Source: Cryobacterium sp. N22
GTDB lineage: Bacteria > Actinomycetota > Actinomycetes > Actinomycetales > Microbacteriaceae
Direction: 5' to 3'
NCBI RefSeq assembly: GCF_002929555.1
Contig: NZ_PJJP01000034.1
Coordinates: 1-64,000 of the forward strand
Length of the DNA stretch: 64,000 nt
In this document: one piece after another, positions 54,871 through 64,000 of the stretch
Numbering within the stretch: the first letter of the stretch is position 1
Layout: the number at the start of each line of letters is the position of its first letter
Program-made: the position numbers and the translations under genes
The notes under the pieces: generated by a model
Databases searched by the model: none
The model's input: the letters and a program-made list of their open reading frames with translations, nothing else
Told to the model about the DNA's origin: nothing

Positions 54871-56196
54871 ATGTCAGCCGCCGCTTCCACCGCCGTCAGC
54901 AGCCGCCTCGAACCGGACCTGTCCAATTGGGACCCGGAAAACGAAGAGACCTGGGATTCCAAGCTCGCTTGGCGCACCCTCTGGATCACCACCTTCAGCC
55001 TCACCCTCGCGTTCGCCTCCTGGTACCTGGTGAGCGCGATCGCGCCGCGACTCAACGACATCGGCTACTCGCTCGCACCCGAGCAGCTCTACTGGCTGGT
55101 GGCCCTGCCCGGCCTGGCCGCCGGCATCCTGCGGTTGGTCTTCATGTTCCTGCCGCCGATCATGGGCACCCGCAACCTGGTCGCGATGTCGTCCGGGCTG
55201 TTGATCCTGCCGATGCTCGGCTGGACCCTCGCCGTGCGGGACACCTCGACGCCGTTCTGGGTGCTGCTCTGCCTGTCGTTCTCGGCCGGCATCGGCGGCG
55301 GCGCGTTCTCCGGCCTGATGGCCTCCACCAGCTACTTCTTTCCCAAGCGCCTGGCCGGCACCGCACTCGGACTGCAGGCGGGCCTGGGCAACTTCGGTAT
55401 CGGCCTGATCCAGCTGCTGCTGCCCTGGGTGGTCGGATTCGGCCTGCTCGGCACGGCCGCGCTCACCCCGCAGTCCAGCGCCAACGGCGAGCTGGTCTGG
55501 CTGCACAACGGCGGACTCGTGCTCATTCCCTGGGCCCTGCTCGCGATGGTGCTCTCGATCGTCTACCTGCGCAGGGTGCCGATCACGGCCAACTTCGCGC
55601 AGCAGGTGGACATCTTCAAGGTCAAGCACACCTGGATCATGACCGCGATCTACCTGATGAGCTTCGGCGCCTACAGCGGCCTGGCCGCCCAGATGGGCCT
55701 GATCATCCTCAACGTCTACGGCGACTTCCCGGATGCGCCCAACCCCCTGGCGTTCGCCTTCATCGGCCCCGTCGTCGGTGCCGCCGTGCGCGCGGCGAGC
55801 GGCCCGTTCTGCGACAAGTTCGGCGGCGCGATCTTCACCTTCGTCGGCGGCGCCGGCATGGTGGTGGGCACGGTCCTGACCGCGTTCTTCCTCACCCCGT
55901 CGAGCGTCGGCGAGTTCTGGGGCTTCCTCACCGGGATGCTGATCATCTTCTTCTTCGCGGGCCTGGCCAACGGCGGCACGTTCAAGCAGATGCCGATGAT
56001 CTTCCCCAAGCGCCAGGCCGGCGGCGCCATCGCCTGGACCTCCGCCATCGCGGCGTTCGGCCCGTTCATCGTGGGCATCTCGCTCACGGCGATCAGCCCG
56101 ACCGCGTTCTTCATCGGCTGCGCCGTGTTCTGCGTCTTCTGCACCGTCCTGGCCTGGGTCTTCTACGCCCGGCCGAACGCCCCGTACCCCGGCTAG
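54871..56196 (+). CDS. narK: Nitrate/nitrite transporter, NarK type
   Basis: 441 residues, about twelve helices of the major-facilitator NNP family. A 35-residue N-terminal extension precedes the first helix. The nitrate signatures are seen: GLQAGLGNFGIGLIQL near 168 and WTSAIAAFGPFIVGISLT near 390, with Arg in GILRLVFMF near 88. It imports nitrate and may exchange it for nitrite, supplying NarGHI. AGGAGC lies about six bases before ATG 54871. It is divergent from moaA and its stop is interleaved with that of the response-regulator pseudogene (CTAG). Confidence 0.94.
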   Translation: MSAAASTAVSSRLEPDLSNWDPENEETWDSKLAWRTLWITTFSLTLAFASWYLVSAIAPRLNDIGYSLAPEQLYWLVALPGLAAGILRLVFMFLPPIMGTRNLVAMSSGLLILPMLGWTLAVRDTSTPFWVLLCLSFSAGIGGGAFSGLMASTSYFFPKRLAGTALGLQAGLGNFGIGLIQLLLPWVVGFGLLGTAALTPQSSANGELVWLHNGGLVLIPWALLAMVLSIVYLRRVPITANFAQQVDIFKVKHTWIMTAIYLMSFGAYSGLAAQMGLIILNVYGDFPDAPNPLAFAFIGPVVGAAVRAASGPFCDKFGGAIFTFVGGAGMVVGTVLTAFFLTPSSVGEFWGFLTGMLIIFFFAGLANGGTFKQMPMIFPKRQAGGAIAWTSAIAAFGPFIVGISLTAISPTAFFIGCAVFCVFCTVLAWVFYARPNAPYPG

Positions 56197-56800
56197 ATCC
56201 AGCCCTGCTGCCAGGCGATCTCGGCAGCCTCGTGCCGGGACCGTGCGTTGAGCTTCGTCATCGCCGATGACAGGTAATTGCGCACGGTCCCGGCCGCGAG
56301 ATGGAGCCTGTCGGCGATCTCCTGCACGCTCATCGTCGACCGGCTGAACCGCAGAGCGTCGAGTTCGCGGTCGGTGAGCGGGCAGCGTTCCGCCGTCAGC
56401 GCCGTCGCCGCGATCTCGGGGTCGATGTACCGCTTGCCCGCCGCCACGGCGCGGATCACGTCGGCGAGGTCCTCAGCCGCCGTCGACTTCGGCACGAATC
56501 CCGACACCCGTGCTCCCAGCGCGCGCCGCAGCACACCGGGGCGGGCATGCCGCGTCACGATCACGACCTTCGTCGCCACCGTCGAGAGGATGCGTGTGGC
56601 CGCCTCGATGCCATCGGCCTCGGGCATCTCGAGGTCGAGCAGGCACACGTCGGGCTTCGTCTCCAGCGCCCGCTCCGCCGCCGCGACGCCGTTTCCGACG
56701 CTGGCCACGACCTCGATGTCGGCAGGGCGCTGAGCGCGCCGCGGATCAGGTGCTCATCATCGGCGATCAACAGCCGGATGACACGGGGCGCCGCGCTCAC
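56193..56800 (-). pseudogene. Frameshifted DesR/NarL-type response regulator
   Basis: The N-terminus opens at GTG 56800 (SAAPRVIRLLIADDEHLIRGALSAL). The rest (DIEVVASVGNGVAAAERALETKPDVCLLDLEMPEADG, then a LuxR HTH ending RHEAAEIAWQQGWI) is in another frame. Relative to the family, about 13 bases near 56722-56727 are missing (an LxLEP-like segment), which shifts the frame. An internal GTG at 56708 could still give a 171-residue product lacking the acidic pocket but keeping the acceptor Asp and HTH. It is coupled to the intact kinase gene (GTGA). Confidence 0.75.
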
Positions 56801-58017
56801 GCGTCAACCCCTGCCCTGACGGCGACGAATACCCGCAGCACAAAGGTGTCGCCATCGCTTTCGGTGTCCAGGTGCCCGCCGATCGCCGCGACCCGGTCGC
56901 GCAAACCGGTCAGGCCGCTGCTGGGGGCGTGTCCCAGGGCATCCGTCGCGGGCGATGCCGCGTTGTTGACGACCTCGAGGGTGCTGCCGGCGGCGCTTGT
57001 GGCGAGGGTGATCGCCGCCCGGCTCGCGGTGCTGTGCCGCAGGATGTTCGTCGTCGCCTCCCGCACGACCAGGGCGAGCACTCTGCGCACCTCGATATCC
57101 GTGGGCAGGGCGCCGAGTTCGAGTGCGCAGTCCGCCCCGGACGCGGTCAGCACCTCCCGGGCGTTCTCGAGCTCCGTCGCCAGATCCACTTCGCGGTAGC
57201 CGGCAACGAGGGAGCGGGTCTCCTCGAGCGCCCGCTTGGCGATGAGCCGGGTCTCGTGCAGGTGCTCCCTGGCGGCATCCGGATCGATGGAAAGGAGGCG
57301 TTCGGCCAGTTCGGACTTGAGCGCGATCACCTGCAGGTGATGGCCCTGGATGTCGTGCAGGTCGGAGGCGAAGCGCAGTCGCTCGTGCGCGACCGCGAGC
57401 TCGGCGGCGACCGACCGGTGCCGATCGAGGGTCACCACGATCTCCCACCACCACAGGCTCGAGAGCACCATCATCGGCAGCATCGCACCGTAGGCGAACA
57501 ACAGCCAGACGCCCGAGGGACCCGATGCCTCGAGCGGATGGCCGAAGGCCGACGACGCCAGCAGCGGGTGGGCCAGGGTTACGGCGGCACCGGCGACGAG
57601 CACCGTCCACCGGCGCGCCCTGGGCAGTAGGGGTGCGATGGCGTTGACACTCATCCACAGTGGGAAGGCGGCGAACAGGCCGGCGCCCGGGGTGACGAGG
57701 CCGAGCAGCCACACGGCGACCGCGGGAACGATCAGGGCGACGGTCCAGGCGAGCCTCGGCATCCCGCCGCCCCGACCGACCCGGAGGAACCAGCAGTAGC
57801 GCACGTGTATCGCCGCGCACACGAGAATCAGCACGATGAGGGCGGCGTCGCGGGGGTCTTCGGCTGCCGCGAAGTTCGCGGCAGCCACGCTCAGCAGGAT
57901 CGAATCGAGCACGACGAAGAAGAAGACGATCGATCCGAGGGTGTAGGTCCAGGTCGTGTGCACGCTGCGCGCCTGCCCGTGCGGGCGCGGCGATTCGCGG
58001 GTAGGGGCGTCAGGCAT
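56797..58017 (-). CDS. DesK-like sensor histidine kinase (HisKA_3)
   Basis: About 406 residues from ATG 58017. Five or six membrane helices (about residues 25-195), then the dimerisation and phosphoacceptor region with His221 in ASDLHDIQGHHLQVIALK. The HATPase_c domain has REATTNILRHSTASRAAI (N box) near 320 and GHAPSSGLTGLRDRVAAIGG near 370. It is the class that partners NarL-type regulators such as DesR and may sense membrane state. It begins six bases after TACGCT. Its cognate regulator gene downstream is frameshifted. Confidence 0.92.
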   Translation of the reverse strand: MPDAPTRESPRPHGQARSVHTTWTYTLGSIVFFFVVLDSILLSVAAANFAAAEDPRDAALIVLILVCAAIHVRYCWFLRVGRGGGMPRLAWTVALIVPAVAVWLLGLVTPGAGLFAAFPLWMSVNAIAPLLPRARRWTVLVAGAAVTLAHPLLASSAFGHPLEASGPSGVWLLFAYGAMLPMMVLSSLWWWEIVVTLDRHRSVAAELAVAHERLRFASDLHDIQGHHLQVIALKSELAERLLSIDPDAAREHLHETRLIAKRALEETRSLVAGYREVDLATELENAREVLTASGADCALELGALPTDIEVRRVLALVVREATTNILRHSTASRAAITLATSAAGSTLEVVNNAASPATDALGHAPSSGLTGLRDRVAAIGGHLDTESDGDTFVLRVFVAVRAGVDA

Positions 58018-58023
58018 GCTGCC

Positions 58024-58029
58024 AGCGTA
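58024..58029 (-). promoter_or_regulatory. -10 element of leaderless kinase gene
   Basis: TACGCT on the minus strand, six bases (GGCAGC), then ATG 58017. Confidence 0.5.
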
Positions 58030-58032
58030 GAG

Positions 58033-58050
58033 CAGTGACATTTGTCACTG
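58033..58050. promoter_or_regulatory. Operator candidate CAGTGAC-ATTT-GTCACTG
   Basis: Perfect 7-bp arms, 4-bp spacer, adjoining the kinase -10. GTGAC-N4-GTCAC is a layout known for DesR/LuxR-type autoregulation, so the operator survives although the regulator gene is broken. A partial copy GTGAC-N5-GACAC lies near 58079. Confidence 0.6.
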
Positions 58051-58128
58051 TCCGACGTGCAGAAGTGCCCGGCATGCGGTGACACGGCGACACTTCAGCG
58101 GGGAGCAGCCGACCCGGAGGGTTGAGTC

Positions 58129-58173
58129 ATGGCTTGGAGAAACCGGGCCAACCGAAGAAAGGCTTCACCTTGA
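58129..58173 (+). CDS. 14-codon leader peptide upstream of the small membrane-transport gene
   Basis: ATG 58129 with GGAGG eight bases upstream encodes MAWRNRANRRKASP and stops at TGA 58171-58173. The stop overlaps the TTG start of the next gene by two bases (TTGA), so translation could be coupled. The peptide is strongly basic. It may instead be a by-product of a TTG start at 58122. Confidence 0.45.
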   Translation: MAWRNRANRRKASP

Positions 58174-58643
58174 TTGACGCGCTGCGCGACTTCACCGCCT
58201 CCCTGCCCGAGCTCCTGCAGTGGTTGGGAATCGTCCTCGCCGCCGCGATCCCGTTCGTGGAGTCGTACTTCGGCGCTGCCATCGGCATTCTCGCCGGCGT
58301 CAATCCGGTCGTCGCCATCCTCGCCGCCATCGTCGGCAACGTGCTCTCGATGCTCGCGTTCGTTCTCAGCGCCCACGGGGTACGGTCACGGGTTCGCCTC
58401 GGCAAAGTCGCCAAGCCCGACTCGCCCCGCCGGGCGAAGCTGCGAGAGCGCTTCGACAGGTACGGCGTCGCCGGTGTCAGCCTCCTCGGCCAGACGATCC
58501 TGCCGAGCCAGATCACCTCGGCCGCCATGGTGTCGTTCGGCGCCTCGAAGAACGTCGTCATCCTCTGGCAGATCATCTCGATCATCATCTGGGGCGTGGT
58601 CTTCGGCGTGCTCGCCACCCTCGGCGTCACGGTCCTCCGCTAG
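58170..58643 (+). CDS. Small multidrug-export-like membrane protein (COG2426 type)
   Basis: About 157 residues from TTG 58170, with AAGAAAGG about seven bases before. A TTG at 58122 would add 16 residues but has poor spacing. Four hydrophobic segments with two re-entrant halves are visible: WLGIVLAAAIPFVESYFGAAIGILAGVNPVVAILAAIVGN and GVSLLGQTILPSQITSAAMVSFGASKNVVI. These resemble the DedA/COG2426 small-export family. The cargo is unknown. It is divergent from the kinase gene and shares the GTGAC palindrome region, so it may be the target of that two-component system. Confidence 0.8.
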   Translation: MIDALRDFTASLPELLQWLGIVLAAAIPFVESYFGAAIGILAGVNPVVAILAAIVGNVLSMLAFVLSAHGVRSRVRLGKVAKPDSPRRAKLRERFDRYGVAGVSLLGQTILPSQITSAAMVSFGASKNVVILWQIISIIIWGVVFGVLATLGVTVLR

Positions 58644-58743: not shown

Positions 58744-60372
58744 ATGACAAACCAGTCGAGTCTCGCAGATACATTCGTCGCTCCTCGCGACGATGCGCTG
58801 GTGGGTGCGGCCCTCGACGTGGCCCGGCTGGGCTCCTGCAGCACCGACTACGACACGTTGTCGGATGCCGCTGTATTGGCCGGTCAGCGCACTCTCGCGC
58901 AGGCGCAGCGCGAGCTCGATACCCGCAAGGCCTGGATGGCGAAGACCCTCGCCCAGCGTTCCCGGTGGGAGCTGGGCCAGTCCGGCCTGGCTGCGCAGCA
59001 GGGTTTCCTCAACCCCGAGGCCCTGATCCAGGAGCTGACCGGCACGAGCAAGGTCGAGTCGCGGAAGCTCGTCGGTGTGGGCCGGATGCTCGCCGAGACC
59101 GAAGACGCCGAAGCGCAGGCGGCCGCGTTCCGGGCGGCCGAGGACGAGGCGGCCCGCTGGTTGCTCGACGGTGCGCTGGATGGCGCGCTCAACCCGGACT
59201 CCCCCGACGCCCAGGACTCCGCCGTTCCGCTGCTGCTGCCGCCGGCACCGGCGCCGTGGCACGCACCGATCTCGCACGCCGTGACCGGAGGCGCCCTCTC
59301 CATCGATGCCGCCCACGCCCTGCGCACCGGCCTGGGCGACATCGACACCGTCGTCACCGGTGCGGCCCTCGCCGACGCCCTGGCCGGGCTGCTCGTTGAC
59401 GCCGAAGCGATGAACGTGGACCAGCTGCTCAAACGAGCCCGCCAAGTACGTGACACCCTCGACGAGGCCGGCATCCGGGTGCGCGAACAGAAGGCCTGGG
59501 ACGACCGCTACCTGCGCATCTGGACCCTGAACACCGGCCAGGTCCGCGTCGACGGCCTCTTCCCGCCGGAACAGGGCGAGTTCATCAAATCCGCCTTCGA
59601 CAGCTTCACCAGCCCCCGCCGCGGCGGCGTGCGCTTCGTCGACACCGACCGGGCCGCCTGGGCCAAACGAGTCAAAGACGACCCCCGCACAACCACCCAG
59701 ATCACCTGCGACGGCTTCATCGACCTGCTCAAAGCCGGCACCACCATCAACCCCAACAACATGCTCGGCGGCCGACGCCCCGCCGTGCAGATCCTCACCA
59801 CCCACACCCCGGCCGCCCGGCCCGCCGCCGCAGAGCCCACCGATACCAACGAACTCCACGCCGCCGACGCACTGGCTGCACCGGCTACACCGGCTACACC
59901 CGACGACATCCTGATCTGCCTACCCGGGCAGGCCGGCCACGGCTACATCGAAGGCAACAACGCCCCGGTCTCCGCCGAAACCATCGAACGCCTGATCTGC
60001 GACTCCGGCACCGTCGAGATCAGGGTCGACGAGTTCGACCGGCCACTGGACCTGGGCCACGAACAACGCCTGTTCACCCGGGCCCAACGCCGCGCCCTCG
60101 CCGCCCGCGACGGCGGCTGCCGATGGCCCGGCTGCGACCGGCCACCAGCCTTCACCGAAGCCCACCACATCGACCACTGGCTTCGGGACCACGGCAGAAC
60201 CGACATCAACCAGGGCATCCTGCTCTGCCCCGGCCACCACATGCTGCTGCACAACCAACGCTGGCAAATCTTCGAAAACACCGGCCGCTACTGGCTCCGG
60301 CCACCCGCCACCATCGACCCCGGGCAGACCCTCATCGAGATGCCCAACCACAACCAACCGCGACACACCTAA
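58744..60372 (+). CDS. DUF222-HNH endonuclease-like protein (13E12 family)
   Basis: 542 residues. The DUF222 helical domain (residues about 45-340) is followed by a proline/alanine linker. A C-terminal HNH motif is CRWPGCDRPPAFTEAHHIDHWLRDHGRTDINQGILLCPGHHMLLHN with both Cys pairs and the catalytic His-His present near 460-510. This family exists in many copies in actinobacterial genomes and its function is unknown. It may act as a homing-type or defence nuclease. Flanked downstream by tandem palindromes and upstream by an AT-rich promoter. It separates the two-component region from narI. Confidence 0.93.
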   Translation: MTNQSSLADTFVAPRDDALVGAALDVARLGSCSTDYDTLSDAAVLAGQRTLAQAQRELDTRKAWMAKTLAQRSRWELGQSGLAAQQGFLNPEALIQELTGTSKVESRKLVGVGRMLAETEDAEAQAAAFRAAEDEAARWLLDGALDGALNPDSPDAQDSAVPLLLPPAPAPWHAPISHAVTGGALSIDAAHALRTGLGDIDTVVTGAALADALAGLLVDAEAMNVDQLLKRARQVRDTLDEAGIRVREQKAWDDRYLRIWTLNTGQVRVDGLFPPEQGEFIKSAFDSFTSPRRGGVRFVDTDRAAWAKRVKDDPRTTTQITCDGFIDLLKAGTTINPNNMLGGRRPAVQILTTHTPAARPAAAEPTDTNELHAADALAAPATPATPDDILICLPGQAGHGYIEGNNAPVSAETIERLICDSGTVEIRVDEFDRPLDLGHEQRLFTRAQRRALAARDGGCRWPGCDRPPAFTEAHHIDHWLRDHGRTDINQGILLCPGHHMLLHNQRWQIFENTGRYWLRPPATIDPGQTLIEMPNHNQPRHT

Positions 60373-60663
60373 GCCCCCATCCGTTGATCGAGCCTGTCGA
60401 GATCCCCCGACCCGGTGCGCGATCGCGACACAGCTCACCAGGTCTAATTCGACAAGCTCAGCACGGCGTCGACAAGCTCGACCAACGAGGTGGGAACCGA
60501 CCTCGGATACGTCACGTGGTCTCGACAAGCTCGACCAACGAGGTGGGAACCGACCTCGGATACGTCACGTGGTCTCGACAAGCTCGACCGACGAGCGGGT
60601 CGGCACCATGCGTTGATCGAGCTTGTCGAGATCCAGCGGGACGACCGCGTTCGCGAGGCGGCG
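60373..60663. repeat. Palindromic repeat cluster with three 53-bp tandem units
   Basis: 291 bp between the HNH gene and narI. Units begin at 60469, 60522 and 60575, each with the TCGACAAGCTCGACCAACG core. Facing copies occur at 60384 (GATCGAGCCTGTCGAGATC) and 60614 (GATCGAGCTTGTCGAGATC). No gene is seen. The dyads may also terminate narI. Confidence 0.9.
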
Positions 60664-61473
60664 TTAGCGGCGGATGTTGGTGCGGGAGCGGGAGGGGCGA
60701 GCGGGCTCGTCGGCGCGCGGGGAGACCCGCACGTTGGGGAGCTCCGCCTTTTCCCAGCCGCGCTGCACCGGGCGGGCGCCGGAGCCCTTGTGGGTGTCGC
60801 GCGAGCGGTAGATCACGTAGGGCCGCCAGATGTAACCGATCGGGGCGGAGAACACGTGCACCAGCCGGGTAAACGGCCAGAGCAGGAACAGCGCCGTGGC
60901 AGTGAGCACGTGCAGCTGGAAGAAGAACGGCACGTCACTCATCAGCGACGGGTCGGGCTGCAGGCCCCAGAGGCTGCGGATCCACGGGGAGATCGAGCCG
61001 CGGTAGTCGTAGCCGGCGCCGAGCACCTGGTGCAGCACGGTGGCGATGGTGCCGAACAGGATGGTGCCGCCGAGGAAGATGTACATCACCTTGTCCATCA
61101 CCGTGGTGGCCAGGTGCACCCGGGTGACCAGTCGCCGGCGGATGATCAGGATGACCAGCCCCGCGATGGTCAGCACCGCCGCGACGCTTCCCATCCAGGT
61201 GGCGCCGAGGTGGTAGATGTGCTCGGTGACGCCGAAGAATTCCAGCCAGGGCTTGGGGATGAACAGGCCCACGACGTGGCCGCCGATCACCATGATCATG
61301 CCGTAGTGGAACATCGGCGACCCCCAGCGCAGCAGCCGGTTCTCATAGGTCTGACTGGAGCGGCTCGTCCAGCCGAACTGGTCGAACCGGTACCGCAGGA
61401 TGTGGCCGACCACGAAGGTGGCCGCGGCGAAGTAGGGGAACGCCACCCACAACAGGAAATCGAGCGGGGTCAT
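60664..61473 (-). CDS. narI: Respiratory nitrate reductase gamma subunit (cytochrome b)
   Basis: 269 residues, five membrane helices. The four heme-ligating His are spaced as in NarI: MFHYGMIMVIGGH (10 apart) and QLHVLTATALFLLWPFTRLVH (18 apart). The C-terminus after residue 230 is a hydrophilic tail ending RSRTNIRR. It takes electrons from menaquinol and passes them through NarH to NarG at the cytoplasmic face. ATG 61473 overlaps the narJ stop by four bases. It is last in narGHJI. Confidence 0.95.
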   Translation of the reverse strand: MTPLDFLLWVAFPYFAAATFVVGHILRYRFDQFGWTSRSSQTYENRLLRWGSPMFHYGMIMVIGGHVVGLFIPKPWLEFFGVTEHIYHLGATWMGSVAAVLTIAGLVILIIRRRLVTRVHLATTVMDKVMYIFLGGTILFGTIATVLHQVLGAGYDYRGSISPWIRSLWGLQPDPSLMSDVPFFFQLHVLTATALFLLWPFTRLVHVFSAPIGYIWRPYVIYRSRDTHKGSGARPVQRGWEKAELPNVRVSPRADEPARPSRSRTNIRR

Positions 61474-63823: not shown

Positions 63824-64000
63824 TTAGTACTCAACCTCCTGGCTGCGTCGACGGATCACGGTGACCTCGTCGCGTTGGTTCCCGGTCGGGCCGAGGTAGT
63901 TGAAAGCGAATGAAAGTTGGGCATAGCCGCCGATCAGGTGGCTGGGTTTGAGCAGGATGCGGGTGAGCGAGTTGTTGGTGCCACCGCGCAGTCCGCTGGT
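63824..64000 (-). CDS. narG: Respiratory nitrate reductase alpha subunit, C-terminal end only
   Basis: 58 C-terminal residues are in the window: TNNSLTRILLKPSHLIGGY, then AQLSFAFNYLGPTGNQRDEV and TVIRRRSQEVEY before TAA 63824-63826. The NYxGPTGNQRDE block is the conserved NarG end. NarG carries the bis-MGD molybdenum site that reduces nitrate to nitrite. The promoter and most of the gene lie right of the window. Confidence 0.95.
   Translation of the reverse strand, partial: TSGLRGGTNNSLTRILLKPSHLIGGYAQLSFAFNYLGPTGNQRDEVTVIRRRSQEVEY

Follow-up and report, generated by a model that had tools for sequence, protein, structure and literature searches.

A species closely related to C. zongtaii, in the cold-loving genus Cryobacterium, has a DesK/DesR-type two-component module with an intact sensor kinase gene and a response regulator gene (RR_A) broken by a 13-base deletion. 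We put at about three in four the probability that regulator function was very recently lost by this deletion, with the loss possibly tolerated because a paralogous regulator of the same genome (regulator B) recognizes the same operator sequence. In our view this is mostly ordinary gene loss, with a hint of backup wiring. The two exact operator copies and the paralogous system (system B) are new in this analysis. Literature searches limited to open-licence papers returned nothing on this system under Cryobacterium zongtaii, Cryobacterium two-component systems, the operator, or a paralog with a frameshift.

The window, by which we mean the whole stretch of 64,000 nucleotides that was analyzed, comes from a 39-contig draft genome totaling 4.06 Mb. 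It was compared with 57 Cryobacterium genomes (its own included) and, in a named scan that may omit its own genome, with loci from six genera (Cryobacterium, Mycetocola, Okibacterium, Microterricola, Paenarthrobacter, and Pseudoclavibacter); each species is represented there by one genome. The whole region occurs at high DNA identity in two other genomes of the 57, G056 (91%) and G017 (82%), which are probably Cryobacterium zongtaii TMN-42 and Cryobacterium sp. 1639, respectively, and are referred to below as the sister species.

A 13-base deletion in the regulator gene

RR_A, a DesR/NarL-type response regulator gene, lies on the minus strand (56193..56800) with a GTG start at 56800. The sequence-only reading had placed the receiver start and the remainder of the protein in different frames, with about 13 bases missing at the join. 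The open reading frames bear this out (the first ~26 codons are in one frame and the remainder in another), and alignment to the genes of both sister species shows a single gap of exactly 13 bases. The deletion junction (56721..56724, minus strand) has three equivalent placements and 2-base microhomology. Frame 0 stops after 79 amino acids, at 56561, so that the ORF left at 56561..56800 (minus strand) encodes the receiver start followed by frameshifted residues. In each of the two sister species the regulator is one intact open frame of 206 residues, and it is unbroken in all 11 named loci across the six genera (two of the 11 being those of the sisters). The window copy retains the whole GerE domain and receiver positions 25-110 of 111 only. 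With its frame broken at 56721-56724, RR_A no longer encodes, in one frame, the first strand, the acidic pair, and the phosphate-accepting aspartate that a functional response regulator has.

The break could be a sequencing or assembly error, or a mutation of the sequenced culture, in which case the living species would have an intact regulator. This would fit with there being a single genome for the species and with the constrained appearance of the rest of RR_A (see below). However, completeness of the genome is rated at 100% and contamination at 0.07%, and the loss of 13 bases at a 2-base microhomology within nonrepetitive sequence is unusual as a sequencing error; we consider this explanation unlikely. 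Ribosomal frameshifting is another conceivable rescue, since slipping back by one base (-1) at the junction would bring the two frames together again and yield a regulator minus four residues. We find this scarcely credible, given that no slippery heptamer was seen by eye at the junction and that residues are present there in every relative examined.

The kinase and its family

RR_A sits directly behind a gene for a DesK-like sensor histidine kinase (HK_A; 56797..58041, minus strand), whose stop overlaps the GTG start of RR_A by 4 bases. Its initial description as intact and coupled to the regulator was correct, as the open frame runs for 414 codons and is 91% identical to the kinase of the sister. 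The longest frame of HK_A begins within the palindrome described below, at 58041, and an in-frame ATG at 58017 is an alternative start. A HisKA_3 match (PF07730, E 4e-14) covers the phosphorylated-histidine motif; at a threshold of 1e-3 Pfam recognized no ATPase domain, and the ATP-binding part (N- and G-box-like motifs) was read by eye only, as was the hydrophobic front part of the protein. The regulator, judged from the intact sister copy, combines a receiver with a LuxR/GerE domain and is closest to DesR (best PDB match 4ldz, E 9.7e-43, over residues 7-205). We take the organism of 4ldz to be Bacillus subtilis, which is consistent with the published DesR motif. In B. subtilis, DesK and DesR form a membrane-fluidity sensing pair. 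The module in the window is like that pair in its regulator family, its HisKA_3 kinase, and the hydrophobic front part of the kinase; it differs in having a DedA/VTT-like neighbor gene rather than a desaturase, and in having a broken regulator. No desaturase is among the identified neighbors of either operator. Against the NCBI equivalogs UhpA, NarL, MctR, MadR, LiaS, and NarX, all scores of the kinase and the regulator are far below the curated cut-offs.

The neighbor in question is a divergent small membrane protein gene (58122..58643, plus strand; the likely start is TTG 58170), which matches Sm_multidrug_ex and VTT (DedA-like) weakly, with scores below both curated cut-offs. It adjoins the module in 11 of 11 named relatives, with the kinase and the regulator on the other side of the operator.

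The operator palindrome

The predicted DesR-type operator (58033..58050) had been described as a perfect 18-bp palindrome of GTGAC type. Its two 8-base arms are indeed perfect, but the TT center is not symmetric, and the pattern is GTGACA-N2-TGTCAC. The 14-base core, GTGACATTTGTCAC at 58035-58048, is identical across all three Cryobacterium species. We classify the palindrome as DesR-type because this core fits the published DesR motif ATGACA-N2-TGTCAT (PMC11034029), from which the operator of the window differs only in the outer base pair.

A chance palindrome can be ruled out and the proposal of a genuine operator upheld, because the exact core GTGACANNTGTCAC is present in all eight genomes of the genus with a related kinase versus 4 of 49 without one (Fisher 3e-7). 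It should be added that 7 of the 16 exact operator sites in the genus are located away from such a system (three in G026 and one each in G032, G009, G028, and G040). No relative of the searched proteins was found at the loci of six of these seven (one G026 site without a locus being left out). The Paenarthrobacter site is ATGACAAATGTCAT. A second block, GTGACACGGCGACACT (58079..58094), is invariant in the three Cryobacterium species, has a recognizable form in other genera, and is possibly a weaker second site for the regulator. The locus also points to a predicted DesR-type operator in a family of actinobacterial systems beside DedA/VTT-like membrane proteins.

Age of the loss and selection

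Changes in RR_A were assigned to branches with G017 as the outgroup and C. zongtaii (G056) as the sister branch. The window branch carries 13 silent changes and 2 replacements, the sister branch 12 silent changes and no replacement, and 6 further silent changes are unassigned. Random changes in the regulator gene would be 69-73% replacements, and the probability of 2 or fewer replacements among 15 changes is about 6e-5 (calculated at a replacement share of 0.65), so nearly all of the divergence of RR_A accrued under constraint. By hand estimate, some 30 replacements would be expected had RR_A been free all along the branch, and 2 were seen (Poisson upper bound ~6). If the gene has been free since it broke, the loss would be no older than about the final fifth of the branch. 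The 13:2 ratio thus agrees with the suggestion, made from the window alone, that the break is young. For HK_A the counts are 29 silent to 19 replacement on the window branch and 38 to 19 on the sister branch, and we read the kinase as still constrained, with no clear decay.

Purifying selection on the downstream part of RR_A would look alike if a truncated product were still useful. Such a product, begun at an internal start, could bind the operator unphosphorylated and be constitutive or dominant. The internal GTG at 56708, for which an unphosphorylatable or altered regulator had been proposed as the alternative to a recent loss, opens a 171-amino-acid frame (56193..56708, minus strand); this downstream frame is open and conserved, and its LuxR/GerE DNA-binding domain is whole. 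In addition, GTG 56564 overlaps the frame-0 stop and GTG 56558 stands just behind it, with AAGG upstream. Nevertheless, we judge a working truncated regulator improbable. There is no Shine-Dalgarno match before GTG 56708 in the stretch tested, and nothing marks this codon as a start because the intact sister gene contains it too, as an internal codon. Its product would be missing the first 24 of the 111 receiver positions, and with them the first strand and helix and the conserved acidic pair. Phosphorylation of this product should not be possible, and the leftover part of the receiver is probably unstable. Translation could conceivably restart at the frame-0 stop (GTG 56564 or 56558), but these codons are incidental, as the same bases encode intact protein in relatives. 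Recency alone accounts for the conservation, with no product needed.

A paralogous system with the same operator

The window genome has only two exact RTGACANNTGTCAY sites of the RTGACA-N2-TGTCAY form expected beside regulated promoters, and both are beside systems of this kind, one in the window (system A) and one on contig C38 (system B). The system B operator precedes an operon that encodes an alpha/beta hydrolase, a HisKA_3 kinase, and a regulator. Among the 27 GerE loci examined in the genome (that of the window included), none is closer to RR_A than regulator B, at 61% identity and 221 bits, with the next at 101 bits. The histidine-region cores of kinases A and B are identical at 29 of 36 positions, whereas 11 other comparable HisKA_3 kinases match A at no more than 17 of 36. 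The two operators differ in their center bases and flanks, and operator B has AGTGACA 7 bases past the palindrome, an extension that operator A lacks; both points speak against cross-talk between the two systems. The motif of pneumococcal RR11, a homolog, is ATGACATTTGTCAT-N7-AGTGACA (PMC11034029). Operator B (GTGACA-N2-TGTCAC-N7-AGTGACA) shares the RR11 layout; the host is different, and the window's own operator is without the N7 element.

System A occurs in 3 of the 57 genomes, system B in 6, and both in one, namely the window genome, where RR_A is broken. Two genomes have system A only, and in the five others with system B the operator is ~1.1 kb upstream of the kinase. Mutual exclusion of the two systems was considered and not accepted, since one co-occurrence compares with ~0.3 expected by chance (a hand estimate) and the counts are no proof. 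With a single case against that expectation, the co-occurrence of both systems with a broken RR_A is suggestive only.

The idea that horizontal acquisition of system B triggered the loss is not supported, as B stands between the same flanks in G041 and beside the same left flank in G044. In C. zongtaii, system B is absent between those flanks, which are 783 bases apart, and system B has diverged about as much as the flanking luciferase-like gene. Loss of system B in the sisters and gain here are equally possible.

Two other observations were made along the way. A third related pair (L047, G041:C1:922904-923809) has the kinase motif HDIQGH, an intact regulator, and no palindrome in the locus. 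On C38 of the window genome, an element of 60-90 bases (L052:8272-8370, about 136271-136369 of the contig, G000:C38) matches dozens of places in several Cryobacterium genomes, often on both strands at one spot, and looks like a dispersed palindromic (REP-like) repeat.

Nitrate genes around the module

The module has nitrate genes on either side (54871-56196 and 58744-61473). A narK-like MFS transporter gene (54871..56196, plus strand), whose stop codon overlaps that of RR_A, lies between moaA and the regulator; narI is past a DUF222 gene, and narG begins at 63845. Neither sister species has this transporter gene between moaA and RR_A; in both, moaA directly abuts the regulator, and narI was not found in the stretches examined, so nar genes were gained or lost around the kinase-regulator module. 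The presence of moaA, narK, and narI suggested a nitrate-regulatory role, which we rejected: the sister pairs adjoin moaA without narK, G056 has no NarG above the family cut-off, and the kinase and regulator score far under the NarX, NarQ, and NarL cut-offs. The window genome itself has two full-length narG genes over the cut-off (L072, G000:C33:542434-546075, and that from 63845 of the window). Elsewhere in the genus, one narG copy has a single in-frame TAA (G035:C54:245919-249548) and another is in several pieces (G014:C16:66285-69125), which is perhaps more nar decay in Cryobacterium.

Implications

In the normal state, as DesR and the conserved layout suggest, the pair would sense a membrane-related condition, and the regulator, acting at the palindrome, would control the kinase-regulator operon itself along with the divergent membrane protein. 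Following the 13-base deletion, no active regulator A would be made, leaving HK_A without a cognate partner and operator A unserved by its own regulator. Less firmly, the loss may be tolerated because regulator B, which would recognize the same GTGACA-N2-TGTCAC, may occupy the orphaned operator A, and cross-regulation of this kind is what the shared operator sequence leads us to infer. Judging by sequence similarity, regulator B may also accept phosphate from kinase A. A stronger version would have it that DesKR systems with the same operator do not persist intact together, and that RR_A was lost with kinase A kept as a second sensor for regulator B, making a two-sensor, one-regulator circuit at both operators; we think this quite unlikely.

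There is a partial parallel in ChrSA and HrrSA of Corynebacterium glutamicum, paralogous systems with cross-phosphorylation in which a frameshift in one partner is compensated via the other system (PMC9491836). Both cases involve two paralogous systems in one actinobacterium. The frameshift there was in a kinase, arose in laboratory evolution, and had its effect shown by experiment, whereas here the broken part is a regulator, the genome is a natural one, and any compensation is predicted from sequence.

Because the kinase and the operator are intact, and because a paralogous pair with the same operator and two sister species with unbroken genes are available for comparison, the locus is a clean natural experiment on the fate of a sensor once its regulator goes. 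It also bears on whether paralogous two-component systems can stand in for one another.
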